From an uncultured Massilia sp. (GTDB lineage: Bacteria > Pseudomonadota > Gammaproteobacteria > Burkholderiales > Burkholderiaceae), in assembly GCA_946886065.1 (NCBI GenBank), contig CAMPHU010000026.1:1-32043 (forward strand): 32,043 nt of DNA, in the 5' to 3' direction. This document shows positions 1 to 8,025 of this stretch, piece by piece (position 1 is the first letter of the stretch; each line of letters starts with the position of its first letter). A model generated the notes under the pieces. That model did no database searches, was not told the origin of the DNA, and saw only the letters and a program-made list of their open reading frames with translations. A program made the translations under genes and the position numbers.

Positions 1-1230
1 TCCAACCTGGGCATGCTCAAGCACGTCTACCGCCGCGGCCTGGCCCTGCGCTACGGGAAGGCGATGCAATGCATCGCCGGCATCCACTACAACTACTCGC
101 TGCCGGAAAAGCTGTGGAAGCTGTTTGCCGAAAGCGAAGGCATCGCGGAAGAACGCCGCAATGCGCTGCGCGACTTCCAGAGCGAGAGCTATATTGCGAT
201 GATCCGCAATTTCCGCCGCTATGCCTGGCTCCTGATGTACCTGTTCGGCGCCACCCCGGCCCTGACCACCAGCTTCCTGCGCGGCCGCCCGCACCAGCTC
301 GAACGGCTGTCCGACGACACGCTCTACCTGCCCTACGCAACCAGCCTGCGCATGAGCGACCTGGGCTACCAGAACGATGCCCAGTCCGGCCTGTGCCCGC
401 ACGAGAACAGCCTGGAAAGCTATGTCACCAGCCTGATGGACGCGGTCAACCGCCCGTATGCGCCCTATGCCGAAATCGGCACCAAGAAGGACGGCGAGTG
501 GATCCAGCTGTCCACCAACGTGCTGCAGATCGAGAACGAATACTATTCGACCATCCGCCCCAAGCGCGTGATCCGCACCGGCGAGCGCCCGGTGCAGGCC
601 CTGTGCAACCGCGGCGTGCAGTACATCGAGGTGCGCTGCCTGGACGTCGATCCTTTCGAGCCGATCGGCATCGCGCTGGAGACCGGCCGCTTCCTGGACG
701 CCTTCCTCCTGTTCTGCGCCCTGGACGAGAGTCCCCTGATCAGCGCCCACGACGGCGCCATCCACGCACGCAACTTCGCGCGCACCGTCAAGGAAGGACG
801 CCGTCCGGACCTGACCCTGACCCGCGACGGGCATGAAGTGCCGCTCAGGGAATGGGCGGAGGAACTGATCGAACGCATCCGCCCGGTGGCCCAGCTGCTG
901 GACGACCAGCACAACGAAGGCGGCGTGCACGAGTCCTCGCTCAACCAGCAGAAGGCCAAGCTCGCGGATCCCTCGCTGACGCCGTCGGCGCGCGTGCTGG
1001 AAGAAGTGCGCGCCCTCGGTTCGGCCGCCGCCTTCGGCCTGCGCCAGAGCGCGCTGCACGCGGCCAGCTTCCGCGACAGCCCGCTGATGCCGGCGGAAGC
1101 GGCGATGTTCGACGAGATGGCGGCGGCTTCGCTGGCCGAGCAGGCCAGCATCGAAGCCACGGACACCGGCAGCTTCGACGACTTCGTCGCGGCCTACAAC
1201 AGCAGTACCCTGTGCGGCAACCACCACTGA
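1..1230 (+). CDS. gshA: Glutamate-cysteine ligase, proteobacterial type (5' end outside window)
   Basis: First step of glutathione synthesis: ATP-dependent joining of glutamate to cysteine in the cytoplasm. The frame is open from base 1, so the true start lies upstream. About 409 residues are visible, and the E. coli enzyme (518 aa) suggests that roughly 110 N-terminal residues are missing. Family landmarks in order are [57 protein letters not shown] and [17 protein letters not shown], all close to E. coli GshA. The last residues are GNHH before TGA. The next gene starts 12 bases downstream on the same strand, so they may be co-transcribed. The gene looks intact over the visible part. Identification is from remembered family sequence and is very secure. 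Confidence 0.95.
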
Positions 1231-1242
1231 TCCGGGGATGCC

Positions 1243-2289
1243 TTGCTCACCTTTTACAACGAACACCATGCCCAGCATGCGGGACGCTTCGCCTTCCTGC
1301 GCGGCGGGCTGGCGCCGTGTTCGGAACAGCCTGAGCGGGCCGCCCTCGTCCTGAAGGAATGCGAGCGGCGCGGGCTGGGCCGCATCGTCACGCCGCACGG
1401 CGTGCCCCTGGTGTCGCTGGAGCGCGTGCACAGCCCGCGCTACCTGCATTTCCTGCGCAGCGCCTGGAGCGAATGGACCGCGCTCGATTCCGCCAATGCG
1501 GCGCGCGACGCTTTTCCCTCGGTCTGGCCGCTGCGGCCCGCGTGCACGGACATCGAGCCTGAACACTTCGATGCGCGCTTCGGCATGCATGCGATGGACA
1601 ATGCGAGCCCGCTCACCGCCGGCACCTGGCTGGCCGCCAAGACCGGCGCCGACTGCGCCGTCAATGCGGCGCATGCGCTGCGCATGGGCGAACGCGGCAG
1701 CTTCGCGCTCACGCGCCCGCCCGGCCACCATGCGGGCGCGGACTTCTTCGGCGGCGGCTGCTTCCTGAACAATGCGGCGCTGGCTGCCCAGCACCTGCTC
1801 GACGACGGCATGGCGCGCGTGGCGGTCCTGGACCTGGGCTACCATCACGGCAACGGCACCCAGGCGATCTTCTACGGCCGCAGCGACGTGCTGTTCCTGT
1901 CGCTGCATGCCGACCCGCGCGGCGCCTACCCGTGGTACACGGGCCATGCCGACGAAACGGGAACGGGAGCGGGACTGGGCTACACGATGAACCTGCCCCT
2001 GGCGGCGGGCGCGGGGAGCGCCGAGTGGTTCGCCGCGCTGGAGACGGCCTGCGTCAAGCTGGCCATGTTCCGCGCCGAGGCGCTGGTGGTGTCCCTGGGG
2101 ACGCCCGCCTTCGGCACGCCGCCCGAGGCGCGCTTCCGGCTGCAGGGAGGCGACTTCCTGCGCATCGGCGAGCGCATCGCCCACCTGGGCCTGCCCACCG
2201 CCTTCATCCTCGAGGGCGGCGACGCGGCGCCGGAGCTGGGCACGCACATCGTGAACGTGCTCGAAGGCTTCGAGACCGCAACCGAGTGA
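1243..2289 (+). CDS. Histone deacetylase / acetylpolyamine amidohydrolase-fold protein with degenerate zinc site
   Basis: A 348-aa protein of the class II HDAC / acetylpolyamine amidohydrolase fold, a family that removes acetyl groups from polyamines or lysines using one zinc. Start is TTG at 1243 after GGGGA; no in-frame ATG is near. The fold markers are clear: MLTFYNEHHA at the N-terminus, LTRPPGHHAGADFFGG (His dyad H162/H163), YHHGNGTQAIFY, and a C-terminal LEGG. However, the family DxDxHHGNG is D197-L-G199-Y-H201-H, so the first zinc Asp is Gly. The usual G-x-D-T-x-x-x-D-P reads G286-T-P-A-F-G-T-P-P, so the second zinc Asp is P288. The catalytic Tyr of EGGY is D327. It is therefore predicted not to bind zinc normally or to deacetylate. 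The reading frame is intact throughout, which argues against simple decay. It sits between gshA and an acetyltransferase gene. Confidence 0.9.
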   Translation: MLTFYNEHHAQHAGRFAFLRGGLAPCSEQPERAALVLKECERRGLGRIVTPHGVPLVSLERVHSPRYLHFLRSAWSEWTALDSANAARDAFPSVWPLRPACTDIEPEHFDARFGMHAMDNASPLTAGTWLAAKTGADCAVNAAHALRMGERGSFALTRPPGHHAGADFFGGGCFLNNAALAAQHLLDDGMARVAVLDLGYHHGNGTQAIFYGRSDVLFLSLHADPRGAYPWYTGHADETGTGAGLGYTMNLPLAAGAGSAEWFAALETACVKLAMFRAEALVVSLGTPAFGTPPEARFRLQGGDFLRIGERIAHLGLPTAFILEGGDAAPELGTHIVNVLEGFETATE

Positions 2290-2311
2290 TTATTCTTTGA
2301 CTGTTACTTCC

Positions 2312-2764
2312 ATGCTCGACTGGCAATTCTCCAGCTTTTCCGACCTGTCCAACAAAGACCTCTACGAGGTGCTGGCCCAGCGCCAGAACATCTTCATCCT
2401 GGAACAAACCTGCCTGTATCCGGACATCGACGGCTACGACCTCGAGGCCCATCACCTGCTCGGCTGGAGGGTGGAAAACGGCAAGCGCGAGCTGGCCGCC
2501 TACCTGCGCGTGCTGGCGCCGGGCGCCAAGTACGAAGAGATGTCGCTGGGCCGCGTGATCACGACCCAGGCCGCACGCGGCAGCGGCGCCGGCCGCCAGC
2601 TGCTGGCGCGCGGCATCGCCTGCGCCGAAGCGCTCCATCCGGGCCACCGCATCCGCATCGGCGCCCAGCAATACCTGGAAAAGTTCTACCAGAGCTTCGG
2701 CTTCGAGACCGTCTCCGCCCCTTACGACGAAGACGGCATCATGCACATCGACATGCTGCGCTGA
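2312..2764 (+). CDS. elaA: GNAT family N-acetyltransferase, ElaA type
   Basis: A 150-aa GCN5-related acetyltransferase using acetyl-CoA; the ElaA substrate is not established. It matches the ElaA pattern: MLDWQFSSFSDLS start, LAQRQNIFILEQTCLYPDIDG, and an acetyl-CoA loop in LGRVITTQAARGSGAGRQLL (R/Q-x-x-G-x-G/A-like) followed by AQQYLEKFYQSFGF. ATG at 2312 is chosen because it aligns with ElaA N-termini. An in-frame TTG at 2297 would add five residues and has a GAG-rich sequence upstream, so it cannot be excluded. The gene lies 22 bases after the deacetylase-fold gene and is probably in one transcript with it. Its stop codon directly abuts the stop of the convergent FKBP gene. Confidence 0.88.
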   Translation: MLDWQFSSFSDLSNKDLYEVLAQRQNIFILEQTCLYPDIDGYDLEAHHLLGWRVENGKRELAAYLRVLAPGAKYEEMSLGRVITTQAARGSGAGRQLLARGIACAEALHPGHRIRIGAQQYLEKFYQSFGFETVSAPYDEDGIMHIDMLR

Positions 2765-3314: not shown

Positions 3315-5192
3315 CTAGATCTCGATTTGGGTGCCGAGCTCGATGACCCGGTTCGGCGGGATCTGGTAATAGTCCGCCGCCGCGCGGGCGTTCCTCGACA
3401 TCATCACGTACAAATGCTCGCGCCATGGCGCCATGCCGCGGCCCGGGGTCGAGATCACGGTCTGGCGCGCGATGAAGAACGAGGTCTCCATCATCTCGAA
3501 TGTCAGGCCCAGGCCGGCGCACTGGCGCAGGATGCCCGGGATGTCCGGCTCGTCCTTGAAACCGTACTGGACGTTGAGCTGGTAGCAGTTGTGGCCCAGT
3601 TCGACGATGCGCACCTGTTCCTGCGGCGGCACCCAGGGCTCTTCGCGGATGTGCACGGTCAGGAACACCACGCGCTCGTGCAGCACCTTGTTGTGCACCA
3701 GGTTGTGCAGCAGCGCGTGCGGCACGCCGTCGCTTTCGCCGCGCAGGAACAGCGCGGTGCCCGGCACCCGCACCGGCGGCGCGACGAACAGCGATTCCAT
3801 GAAGGCGTCCAGCGGGATCGCATGCTTTTCCAGGTTGTCGAAGACCAGCTCGCGGCCGCGCTTCCAGGTCAGCATCAGGGTCAGCAGGACGGTACCCAGC
3901 AGCAGCGGGAACCAGCCGCCGTGGAACAGCTTGAGCGTGGTCGACGAGAACAGCATGACGTCGATCGCGAAGAAGAAGCCGGTCGCGCCCAGGCACACGG
4001 CCAGCGGCAGGTGCCAGCGGTAGCGCGTGACGAAGAAGGTCAGGATGGTGGTGGCCATCATGGTCGCGGTCACGGCGATGCCGTAGGCGCCGGCCAGTTC
4101 GTCCGAGGAGCCGAAGCCGATCACGGCGATCAGGACCACGCACAGCTGCAGCCAGTTCACGGCCGGGATGTAGATCTGGCCGATCTCGCTTTCCGAGGTG
4201 TGCAGGATGCGCATGCGCGGCAGCAGGCCCAGCGCGATGGCCTGCTTGGTCATCGAATAGGTGCCCGAGATGGTCGCCTGCGAGGCGATCACCGCCGCCA
4301 TGGTCGACAGGATCACCAGCGGAATCACGCTCCAGGAGCCGAGCTGGTGGAAGAAGGGGTTGTCCACGGCGTCCGGCTGCATGATCAGGAGGCCGCCCTG
4401 GCCCAGGTAGTTCAGCGCCAGCGCCGGGAAGGCGATCGTGAACCAGGCCATGCGGATCGGCTTGCGGCCGAAGTGGCCCATGTCGGCGTACAGCGCCTCG
4501 GCGCCCGTCATGGCCAGCACCACCGCGCCCAGCGCCACGAAGGCCAGCAGCTTGTTTTCCAGCATGAAGCGCAGCGCTTCCCACGGGTTGAGCGCCCGCA
4601 GGATCACCGGCGCCTCGAGGATGTTGATGACGCCCATGACGGCCAGGGCGATGAACCATACCAGCATGATGGGGCCGAAGAAGCGGCCGATGCCGGCCGT
4701 GCCGTGGCGCTGCACGCTGTACAGGACCAGCAGCACGAGGACCGCGATCGGCACCACGTAGTGCGACATGCCGGGCGCCGCCACTTCCAGGCCTTCGATC
4801 GCGCCCAGCACCGAGATCGCCGGCGTGATCACGCTGTCGCCATAGAACATGGTGGCGCCCAGCACGCCGATCACGAGCAGCGGGAAGTGCCAGGCCGAGT
4901 GTTTGGTGACCGAGTTGGTGGCCAGCGCCATCAGGGCCATGATGCCGCCCTCGCCGCGGTTGTCGGCGCGCAGGACCAGGGTCACGTACTTGAGCGAGAC
5001 GACAATCGTCAGGCTCCAGAAGATCAGGGAAACGATGCCGAGGATGTTCGGCGTGTTGAGCGGCAGGCCATGTTCATGGTCGAAGATGGCCCGCAGGGTG
5101 TAGAGGGGGCTGGTACCGATATCGCCGTAGACGATGCCGACCGCGGCCAGGGTCAGCGCGGCCAGGCTGCTTTTCTTGTTCTCGGACGTCAA
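3315..5192 (-). CDS. kup: Low-affinity potassium transporter, Kup/HAK/KT family
   Basis: Inner-membrane K+ uptake protein, probably a K+/H+ symporter, of 625 aa (E. coli Kup is 622). The N-terminal signature GIVYGDIGTSPLYTLR is followed by about twelve hydrophobic segments up to about residue 430 and a soluble C-terminal domain ending GTQIEI. Other family blocks are RADNRGEGGIMALMAL, YGDSVITPAISVLGAIEGLEV and ALYADMGHFGRKPIR. Start is set at TTG 5192 (MTSENKKSSLAAL): the open frame runs further upstream, but that sequence is non-homologous, lies in the divergent promoter region and contains paired repeats. rarD is divergent; the 5' leader carries overlapping palindromes described separately. 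Confidence 0.95.
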   Translation of the reverse strand: MTSENKKSSLAALTLAAVGIVYGDIGTSPLYTLRAIFDHEHGLPLNTPNILGIVSLIFWSLTIVVSLKYVTLVLRADNRGEGGIMALMALATNSVTKHSAWHFPLLVIGVLGATMFYGDSVITPAISVLGAIEGLEVAAPGMSHYVVPIAVLVLLVLYSVQRHGTAGIGRFFGPIMLVWFIALAVMGVINILEAPVILRALNPWEALRFMLENKLLAFVALGAVVLAMTGAEALYADMGHFGRKPIRMAWFTIAFPALALNYLGQGGLLIMQPDAVDNPFFHQLGSWSVIPLVILSTMAAVIASQATISGTYSMTKQAIALGLLPRMRILHTSESEIGQIYIPAVNWLQLCVVLIAVIGFGSSDELAGAYGIAVTATMMATTILTFFVTRYRWHLPLAVCLGATGFFFAIDVMLFSSTTLKLFHGGWFPLLLGTVLLTLMLTWKRGRELVFDNLEKHAIPLDAFMESLFVAPPVRVPGTALFLRGESDGVPHALLHNLVHNKVLHERVVFLTVHIREEPWVPPQEQVRIVELGHNCYQLNVQYGFKDEPDIPGILRQCAGLGLTFEMMETSFFIARQTVISTPGRGMAPWREHLYVMMSRNARAAADYYQIPPNRVIELGTQIEI

Positions 5193-5196
5193 GATT

Positions 5197-5228
5197 GCAC
5201 CATGTTTTTGTTCTGGTGCGGCGCACCA
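5197..5228 (-). promoter_or_regulatory. Overlapping GCACCA/TGGTGC hairpins in the kup leader
   Basis: Just upstream of the kup TTG the plus strand reads GCACCA (5197-5202), 11 bases, TGGTGC (5214-5219), GGC, GCACCA (5223-5228). In the kup mRNA the middle element could pair with the first arm (perfect 6-bp stem, 3-base loop) or with the element that abuts the start codon (6-bp stem, 11-base loop). The two pairings exclude each other. This arrangement is seen directly; a regulatory role is inference. It could instead be a protein-binding site. Confidence 0.4.
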
Positions 5229-5322
5229 TAGAATATCGACAAGAAAATTGCAAGAAGATTTCGTCCTGCATGATACACCTGCGCAAATTTGCGCCGCGCC
5301 AGCAGGGATCGTGCGCATCGGG

Positions 5323-5328
5323 GATAAT
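5323..5328 (+). promoter_or_regulatory. Candidate -10 box for rarD (GATAAT followed by GGC)
   Basis: GATAATGGC lies 28 bases before the ATG chosen for rarD. It resembles the TAnnATnGC pattern found before several other genes in the window. No convincing -35 is seen. If real, the ATG at 5327 lies inside the -10 box and cannot be the start of rarD. Confidence 0.4.
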
Positions 5329-5356
5329 GGCAGCTCAGCAATCGCCCTCCCTTCCC

Positions 5357-6235
5357 ATGCGCTCCGGTATCCTGTCCGCCACCCTCGCCTTCCTGTGCTG
5401 GGGGCTGTTTCCTTTGTATTTCCACGCGATCGGCGAGGTGCCGCCGCTGGAGATCCTGATGCACCGGGTGCTGTGGTCACTTGCTTTTCTTCTTCTTGTG
5501 CTGGCCGTGCGCCGCCAGTGGAAATGGCTGCAGCAGGCGCGCCAGCCGCGCGTGCTGGGCAGTTTCCTGGCCTCGGCCTTCCTGCTCAGCGCCAACTGGC
5601 TGGCCTATATCTGGGCGGTCAAGAACGGCCACGTGATCGAGGCCAGCCTCGGCTACTTCATCAATCCGCTGGTGAACATCATGTTCGGCTACGTGATCCT
5701 GAAGGAGCGCCTGCGTCCGGCCCAGTGGGGGGCCATCGCCCTGGCGGCGCTGGGCGTGGCCTGGCTGACCTGGCAATCGGGCTCGGTGCCCTGGATCGCC
5801 CTGTTCCTGGCCGCCACCTTCGGCGGCTATGGCCTGCTGCGCAAGACCGCGGCGCTGGGCGCCCTCGAAGGCCTGTCCTTCGAGACCATGCTGCTGTTCC
5901 CGATCGCCGCCGCGTATATCGGCTGGCTGACCTATACCGGCGACAACGCCTTCGTCAACGCGCCCTCGGACACCACCCGCCTGCTCTTGATCCTGGCCGG
6001 TCCGATCACCGCGATCCCGCTGCTGCTGTTCGCCAGCGGCGCGCGCCAGATCCCGCTGTCGATCCTGGGACTGCTGCAGTACCTGTCGCCCACCATCCAG
6101 TTCCTGCTGGGCGTGTGGCTGTTCCACGAAGCCTTCAGCGCCGACCGCCTGGTGGGCTTCGTCCTGATCTGGTCCGCGCTGGCCCTGTTCGGCGGCGAAG
6201 GCCTGTGGCGCAGCCGCAGGGCGAACAAAGCGTGA
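5357..6235 (+). CDS. rarD: EamA-family transporter RarD
   Basis: A 292-aa inner-membrane permease of the drug/metabolite transporter superfamily. RarD proteins are named for chloramphenicol sensitivity in Pseudomonas, but the physiological substrate is not known. About ten hydrophobic helices are visible. Family marks include LAFLCWGLFPLYF, EILMHRVLWSLAF, NWLAYIWAVKNGHVIEASLGYFINPLVN, LKERLRPAQW and LGLLQYLSPTIQFLLGVWLF. ATG 5357 gives a length close to E. coli RarD (296). ATG 5327 would add ten residues but overlaps a likely -10 box. No strong ribosome-binding site is seen before either start. The gene is divergent from kup and 78 bases before ettA. Confidence 0.92.
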   Translation: MRSGILSATLAFLCWGLFPLYFHAIGEVPPLEILMHRVLWSLAFLLLVLAVRRQWKWLQQARQPRVLGSFLASAFLLSANWLAYIWAVKNGHVIEASLGYFINPLVNIMFGYVILKERLRPAQWGAIALAALGVAWLTWQSGSVPWIALFLAATFGGYGLLRKTAALGALEGLSFETMLLFPIAAAYIGWLTYTGDNAFVNAPSDTTRLLLILAGPITAIPLLLFASGARQIPLSILGLLQYLSPTIQFLLGVWLFHEAFSADRLVGFVLIWSALALFGGEGLWRSRRANKA

Positions 6236-6313
6236 TGCGATTCCAAAGAAATCCTGTGGTCGGCACGGGTTCTGTCGTATCCTGTGCACCTTAAACAACA
6301 CCAGAGTTAAAGC

Positions 6314-7981
<1,668 letters not shown>

Positions 7982-7998
7982 ATCGTTGTTTCTCAAGG

Positions 7999-8025
7999 AA
8001 AAGCCCACCTCGGTGGGCTTTTTTT
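7999..8025 (+). terminator. Intrinsic terminator of ettA
   Basis: AAGCCCACC and GGTGGGCTT form a 9-bp inverted repeat (8001-8009/8012-8020; effective loop CTCG). It is followed by a run of seven T, starting 19 bases after the ettA stop codon. Confidence 0.9.

Follow-up and report, generated by a model that had tools for sequence, protein, structure and literature searches.

Why would a bacterium keep a complete gene for a deacetylase-fold protein that lacks most of the residues with which such enzymes work? The question is raised by a reading frame near the start of a 32,043-nucleotide contig from an uncultured Massilia sp. (CAMPHU010000026.1 of assembly GCA_946886065.1), referred to here in its full length as the window. 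A first-pass annotation, made from the letters alone, had described an intact gene related to histone deacetylases (HDACs) and acetylpolyamine amidohydrolases (APAHs) that has lost both zinc aspartates and the catalytic tyrosine and may have been kept as a binding or regulatory protein. The comparative analysis presented here leads us to the reading, to which we assign a probability of about 0.65, that the Massilia APAH orthologue has become a pseudo-deacetylase without zinc, retained for a role that is non-catalytic and probably consists in protein binding. The features that enter into the argument are listed in Table 1.

Table 1. Coordinates in the window of the gene under study, its neighbours and the codons discussed in the text.
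Feature	Position	Strand	Evidence or remark
gshA, glutamate-cysteine ligase	13..1230	+	TIGR01434, 496 bits, model positions 122-512; 5' part off the window
Pseudo-acetylpolyamine amidohydrolase gene	1243..2289	+	348 aa, TTG start; ORF list, PF00850, solved relatives
Lid region, residues 15-30	1285..1332	+	Present in the window; E17 replaced by Ala
His dyad H162/H163 codons	1726..1731	+	Kept in the window
D197 codon	1831..1833	+	By motif, the K+1-binding Asp; role per PMC11532494 (excerpts)
G199 codon, GGC	1837..1839	+	Replaces zinc ligand Asp (M. ramosa D195)
H201 and H202 codons	1843..1848	+	H201 is the remaining zinc ligand
P288 codon, CCC	2104..2106	+	Replaces zinc ligand Asp (M. ramosa D284)
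D327 codon, GAC	2221..2223	+	Replaces catalytic Tyr (M. ramosa Y323)
GNAT acetyltransferase gene	2297..2764	+	PF13673; NF007644, 123 bits, under its cutoff of 171

The gene begins 12 bases past the stop codon of gshA, and its product, encoded by a single full-length frame, matches the deacetylase family PF00850 in one stretch with 197 bits. Its best relatives of known structure are acetylpolyamine amidohydrolases (9gkz, 341 bits; 6phr, 289; 3q9b from M. ramosa, 270). The arginase-deacetylase fold spans the whole protein according to PF00850, the alignments to solved sequences and a Foldseek search with a predicted model (pTM 0.81, mean pLDDT 71.1), in which APAH structures rank first (6pht, E-value 1.6e-30, TM 0.85; 9gkz, 42% identity). 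The annotation of a deacetylase-fold gene next to gshA and an acetyltransferase is thus borne out. Low model confidence at the pocket loops was considered as a sign of pocket collapse and discarded, as the control model of an intact orthologue (P0038), built from the same 34 sequences, is scored even lower (67.8 vs 71.1); the low local pLDDT in both models reflects the shallow alignment, and no structural inference was drawn from it. No stop codon or frameshift interrupts the gene. The window is GC-rich, with overlapping and antisense frames of up to 843 aa (for example, 3315-5480 and 5477-8008 on the minus strand and 3327-5231 on the plus strand). With such long frames in the same DNA, an uninterrupted frame does little by itself to establish a gene, and it is the substitution patterns that carry the case for retention.

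In alignment with the M. ramosa APAH, H162/H163 of the window protein correspond to H158/H159, G199 to D195, H201 to H197, P288 to D284 and D327 to Y323. We take D195, H197 and D284 of the M. ramosa enzyme to be its zinc ligands, and this Asp/His/Asp set is incomplete in the window protein (G199, H201, P288); the EGGY motif with the oxyanion Tyr reads EGGD, and the PPGHH and HHGNGTQ motifs are present. From GAC, GAC and TAC, the three altered codons require one, two and one base changes, respectively. All three replacements are common to the window, G001 (93% identical protein) and G182 (88%), which rules out a sequencing error as their cause; another Asp hidden in the metal site by misalignment was also rejected, since separate alignments agree on the residues of the window protein. 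The first-pass reading of this active site therefore stands: three catalytic positions altered, the His dyad kept, and, with both zinc aspartates and the Tyr replaced, a normal zinc deacetylase unlikely. By sequence and by place the gene is an APAH orthologue; by its residues it would not be a zinc deacetylase, and we consider it very probable that the protein is non-catalytic.

The orthologue was surveyed in 62 genomes of the genus to which the nearest genome, G001, belongs, a set that includes M. aurea, M. brevitalea, Massilia sp. PDC64 and IC2-477. It is present in 61 of these genomes and is flanked by gshA and the GNAT gene in 60 of the 61; in L173 the contig ends inside the orthologue and only the GNAT side is visible. 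A GNAT gene lies beside all 61 orthologues (a partial match in L064). The orthologue was not found in G114 (L187/L175/L176), where the matched parts of gshA and GNAT are 20 bases apart, and that of G177 contains a frameshift or a sequencing fault. Eight positions (162, 163, 197, 199, 201, 202, 288 and 327) were scored, with HHDDHHDY as the intact pattern; the distant loci L039 and L040 (38% identical, both HHDDHHDY) were left out of the genus residue survey. The pattern is intact in only two of the 61 genus orthologues. Elsewhere in the family, 27 of 31 orthologues have it, the four exceptions being L021 and the Duganella-like L027, L028 and L032. The latter three (genus code g40; Duganella-like by L022 and L023) read N288/S327, with H163 also replaced by Leu in L032, and intact orthologues (L018, L022-L024) are found beside them; they apparently represent a separate origin in a second genus.

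Database sequences give a similar picture. Among 80 named loci, 70 are intact, nine are altered, all of them Massilia by title, and one, L115, is unreadable; HHDDHHDY is found in 60 of the 60 named loci that by title lie outside Massilia, Janthinobacterium and Duganella. The name Massilia is no sure guide, since the pattern is also complete in M. horti, M. frigida and Massilia sp. CF038, the last belonging to another genus code (G095, g12). In L115 (Massilia sp. H-1), the APAH gene and gshA alike are broken into pieces, which points to assembly indel errors rather than biology. Altered sites are not rare among close relatives, as 49 of the 120 nearest database proteins listed have them and 71 are intact. 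A metagenome protein, P0004, is identical to the window protein at 309 of 313 shared residues and has a 35-residue in-frame gap opposite residues 177-211, which removes the whole DxGxHH segment; this could be one more stage of the dismantling or else a misassembly of its 1286-base contig.

Loss of the catalytic positions is graded. Among the 60 unbroken genus genes (the window gene included, the contig-edge L173 and the frameshifted L174 dropped), 58 are without the catalytic Tyr, 30 without D288, 20 without D199 and 12 without the first dyad His, H162; at least one zinc Asp is gone in 34 genes and both in 16, and H163 is lost in none of the 61 orthologues. The Tyr is missing from every gene that lacks another catalytic residue, no gene has lost D288 and kept the Tyr, and none of the 60 has lost H162 while keeping D199. 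A strictly nested order of loss across the genus was nevertheless rejected, given that D199 is lost and D288 kept in four of the 60 (L033, L057, L064, L164). The Tyr is the only one of the eight positions to be lost in 24 of the 61 orthologues, in 14 of them by change to Ser; it has become His in four genes (L057, L064, L169, L172), each of which also lacks at least one zinc Asp. In M. niastensis P0005 and in L042, D327 is the sole replacement, and the metagenome protein P0002 combines P288 and D327 with an unaltered D199. Since G199 is present in P0003, whose branch lies outside P0002, this residue either arose twice or was reversed. What had been noticed as a single altered gene is accordingly a real alteration, but also one stage of a genus-wide series.

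These changes were mapped on a tree of 73 taxa derived from the codons of the flanking gshA and GNAT genes by a quick method, the backbone of which is partly weak; 20 of 93 taxa without both flanking genes in the stretch were left out. By parsimony over 72 taxa (13 from outside the genus), with counts in which loss and regain are not distinguishable, the minimum number of changes is four for Y327 (27 when letters are counted), nine for D288, six for D199, seven for H162, two for H201, one for H163 and none for D197 and H202. Besides Tyr, position 327 holds ten different residues or a gap, and position 288 holds P, G, N, A or a gap, the latter being partly alignment-dependent where the loop is deleted (L054 has a gap in one alignment and Ala in another). 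Site 327, fixed in active relatives, has accumulated more changes than 97% of all sites.

The relaxation extends from the catalytic residues to the pocket and its loops. In 97 intact orthologues (at least five of which are duplicates of the same genomes), 99 sites are at least 97% fixed; 70 of these are kept in at least 90% of the 58 degenerate genus genes and 29 are not, and 44 of the 99 show no change at all on the tree. The 29 relaxed sites include E17, H162, Y172, D199, N204, D288, D293, P294, Y327 and A328. Catalytic and substrate-contact sites are relaxed in seven of nine cases vs 22 of 90 other sites (p = 0.002) and, with motif residues added, in nine of 16 vs 20 of 83 (p = 0.013), both with contact lists chosen after the data had been seen. 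E17, presumably one of the APAH substrate contacts, is other than Glu in 45 of 72 taxa and Y172 other than Tyr in 52 of 72, both being replaced in the window as well; P294, the Pro of the DPxS segment, is kept in 48% of the 58 degenerate genes. Deletions fall mainly in the lid, the D288 loop and the EGGY loop, with residues 15-30 missing in up to 26 of the 60 genus genes, 287-297 in up to 16 and 327-334 in up to nine; residue 121 (4/60), residue 159 (2/60) and the last residue are also missing in some members, and the window protein itself is full length. H8 and F305 are the only residues that are common (at least 85%) in degenerate genes yet rare (below 30%) in intact ones.

Excerpts of a structural survey of bacterial deacylases (PMC11532494) allow some of these sites to be named. 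By numbering (offset 4), N204 is the charge-relay Asn200 of PsApaH. R98 and D167, the counterparts of the PsApaH salt bridge R95-D163 of the head-to-head dimer formed through the L1 and L2 loops, are both present in the window protein, and the Arg is lost in 18 of the 60 genus genes. D197 and S220, unchanged on the tree, match the side-chain ligands of potassium site 1 by motif and spacing rather than by alignment, and potassium may still be bound by proteins of the window type.

Selection after the loss was assessed in the window gene, L001 and L041, all of which carry G199, P288 and D327, under an MG codon model with kappa and F3x4 frequencies. This trio has an omega of 0.136, and 38 of 40 codon bootstraps fall within 0.094-0.183; the same-species values for the neighbouring genes are 0.074 (gshA) and 0.113 (GNAT). 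By clade, omega is 0.176 for the window clade, 0.206 for the most dismantled clade (12 genes), 0.128 for the Ser clade, 0.108 for the M. aurea clade and 0.099 for the intact clade; the trio is thus at 1.4 times the intact value and the degenerate clades at 1.1-2.1 times, all far below 1. Relative to gshA, omega comes to approximately 0.9 for the intact clade and to 1.6-2.4 for the degenerate ones, which is a partial relaxation, far from neutrality. Differences between the window gene and G001 are distributed 16/11/46 over the three codon positions (chi-square p = 4e-7), and 41 distinct in-frame gap patterns, which are not independent events, occur in the 60 genes against one frameshifted gene (L174). 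When the active-site loops are compared with the rest of the protein, using borders chosen after conservation and gap data had been seen and hence not blind, they are the more constrained part in the intact clade (omega 0.073 vs 0.108) and the less constrained part in all four degenerate clades: 0.305 vs 0.147 in that of the window, 0.266 vs 0.199 in the most dismantled one, and 0.150 vs 0.094 and 0.154 vs 0.121 in the other two. In the trio the two parts scarcely differ (0.147 vs 0.132). Outside the loops, the most dismantled clade exceeds the intact one (0.199 vs 0.108).

Three changes shared between species and an omega of this size after the loss indicate neither sequencing error nor neutral decay. 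The first-pass view that the gene has been retained thus holds on the strength of its substitutions, and not by the open frame on which it had rested. Simple decay against a background of intact congeners is likewise not what is observed, for the most part, with two of the 60 genus genes intact and only the modest rise in omega given above. Neither a broken frame nor neutral substitution, the marks of a pseudogene, is found in the window gene; a catalytic motif lost and purifying selection thereafter, the marks of a pseudoenzyme kept by selection, are what the alignments indicate. At the level of sequence, the comparison demonstrates that, on top of the Tyr, several lineages have separately lost zinc Asp ligands, the first His of the dyad, residues that contact the substrate and portions of three active-site loops, with the scaffold under purifying selection.

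Paralogues intact at the catalytic positions, suggested at the outset as something to look for, remain in genomes of the genus. Besides the orthologue, each of the 61 genomes that carry it contains one or more additional HDAC-fold matches, and in G114 such a match stands alone. Of ten such paralogue loci in nine genomes, nine read HHDDHHDY; the tenth, L183 of G099, has HN for HH at the H202 position and is intact at the other seven. Among the further matches listed in the genus genomes there is no second close APAH, as they are 32-42% identical over the matched part.

Known members of the fold provide points of comparison. Class IIa HDACs (HDAC4/5/7/9) also have the catalytic Tyr replaced and keep the zinc site. 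They have His at the place of the Tyr, whereas the window protein has Asp and lacks both zinc aspartates, which places it outside that class. Low activity and a suggested scaffold role are described for them in the survey excerpts (PMC11532494), as are the APAH family, 'cluster 4' of the bacterial deacylases, its motifs RPPGHH (154-159) and EGGY (320-323) and the substrate-touching residues F27, I29, E106, Y168, F225 and Y323. With APAHs (M. ramosa 3q9b, Marinobacter 6phr, Pseudomonas PsApaH 9gkz) the window protein shares the fold, the His dyad, PPGHH and HHGNGTQ; unlike them, it has two of the three zinc ligands, the catalytic Tyr and the E17 and Y172 contacts replaced. By its own account, the survey came upon no bacterial enzyme with a Tyr to His change, and the representatives chosen in it all have conserved active sites. 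The pseudo-deacetylase domain of HDAC10, as described in excerpts of PMC5454378, is a non-catalytic HDAC fold without the active-site loops L1-L5; in the Massilia genus, too, some members are without portions of the lid, D288 and EGGY loops. The HDAC10 domain is fused to an active one, whereas the Massilia protein is free-standing, with living intermediate stages and, in the window, full length. The open-licence literature matches listed contain no description of a Massilia pseudo-APAH and none that pairs Massilia with acetylpolyamine.

The main rival to retention is slow decay, in which the enzyme became dispensable in an ancestor and the gene has been drifting to loss, constrained only by selection against misfolding or operon polarity. 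Such drift would account for the one absence (G114), which shows that the gene is dispensable somewhere and counts against retention, for the one frameshift (G177), the omega raised against gshA, the loop deletions, and a Tyr position that wanders through ten other residues and a gap. It is harder to reconcile with the low omega among genes that had already lost their catalytic residues, the excess of in-frame gap patterns (again patterns, not events) over frameshifts, the 44 conserved sites that never change on the tree, the near-universal presence of the orthologue in the genus, and G114, where gshA and GNAT are adjacent without a placeholder frame. On balance we regard slow decay as unlikely and the gene as probably kept by selection for its own product.

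What that product does is a separate matter. According to the first-pass annotation it might be a sensor, and an inactive pocket that binds acetyl-polyamine or acetyl-lysine could regulate the GNAT or polyamine metabolism; the fold is kept, and the 24 orthologues that have lost the Tyr alone, most often to Ser, are in a state like that of class IIa HDACs. We do not retain this proposal and consider it very improbable, because the pocket and ligand contacts decay in parallel: the loss of constraint on catalytic residues is accompanied by relaxation at E17, Y172, the Pro of DPxS and the lid loop. Slightly less credible still is a changed enzyme that remains catalytic through a new metal site or metal-free chemistry. 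H201, H163, H202 and D197 are largely or wholly retained, as it would require, and supposed pseudoenzymes have sometimes proved active, such as USP53, filed as a pseudoenzyme (PMC12037411, excerpts). The replacements at 288 and 327 vary, however, so there is no common new site, and nothing beyond H8 and F305 has become newly common in the degenerate genes.

For the pseudo-deacetylase that we favour, the following scheme can be proposed. Without D199, D288 and Y327, the window protein would hold no catalytic zinc and would hydrolyse nothing. It would be retained as a folded, perhaps dimeric protein, dimerisation being unproven in view of the loss of R98 in part of the genus. Its surface may bind a partner or stabilise a complex, which is the least certain step; that the protein is a protein-binding scaffold is a guess, offered tentatively and with more doubt than conviction. 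A candidate partner would be another cell protein, for example the product of the adjacent GNAT gene or an intact paralogue with the HDAC fold. The former pocket would have become superfluous and would be undergoing dismantling, in stages of Tyr loss, zinc ligand loss, dyad loss and loop removal. The broader proposition is that, throughout the genus, a zinc-free pseudo-deacetylase has taken the enzyme's place at this locus in a new role independent of the pocket, and that the living species preserve stages of this conversion, several of them reached in parallel; it seems to us evenly balanced between true and false.

Pseudoenzymes have mostly been examined as isolated end points. In this genus, intact forms coexist at a single locus with forms that lack the Tyr, zinc ligands or loops, which makes the order and the cost of losing catalysis directly testable by biochemistry and genetics. 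The bacterial HDAC family is extended by members with altered active sites, Tyr to His changes among them, and the automatic enzyme names given to altered copies, such as 'histone deacetylase family protein' for P0005 and 'acetoin utilization deacetylase AcuC-like enzyme' for P0006, are misleading. If the proposed reading is true, the HDAC10 pseudo-domain would have a bacterial counterpart in the Massilia protein, which is free-standing.
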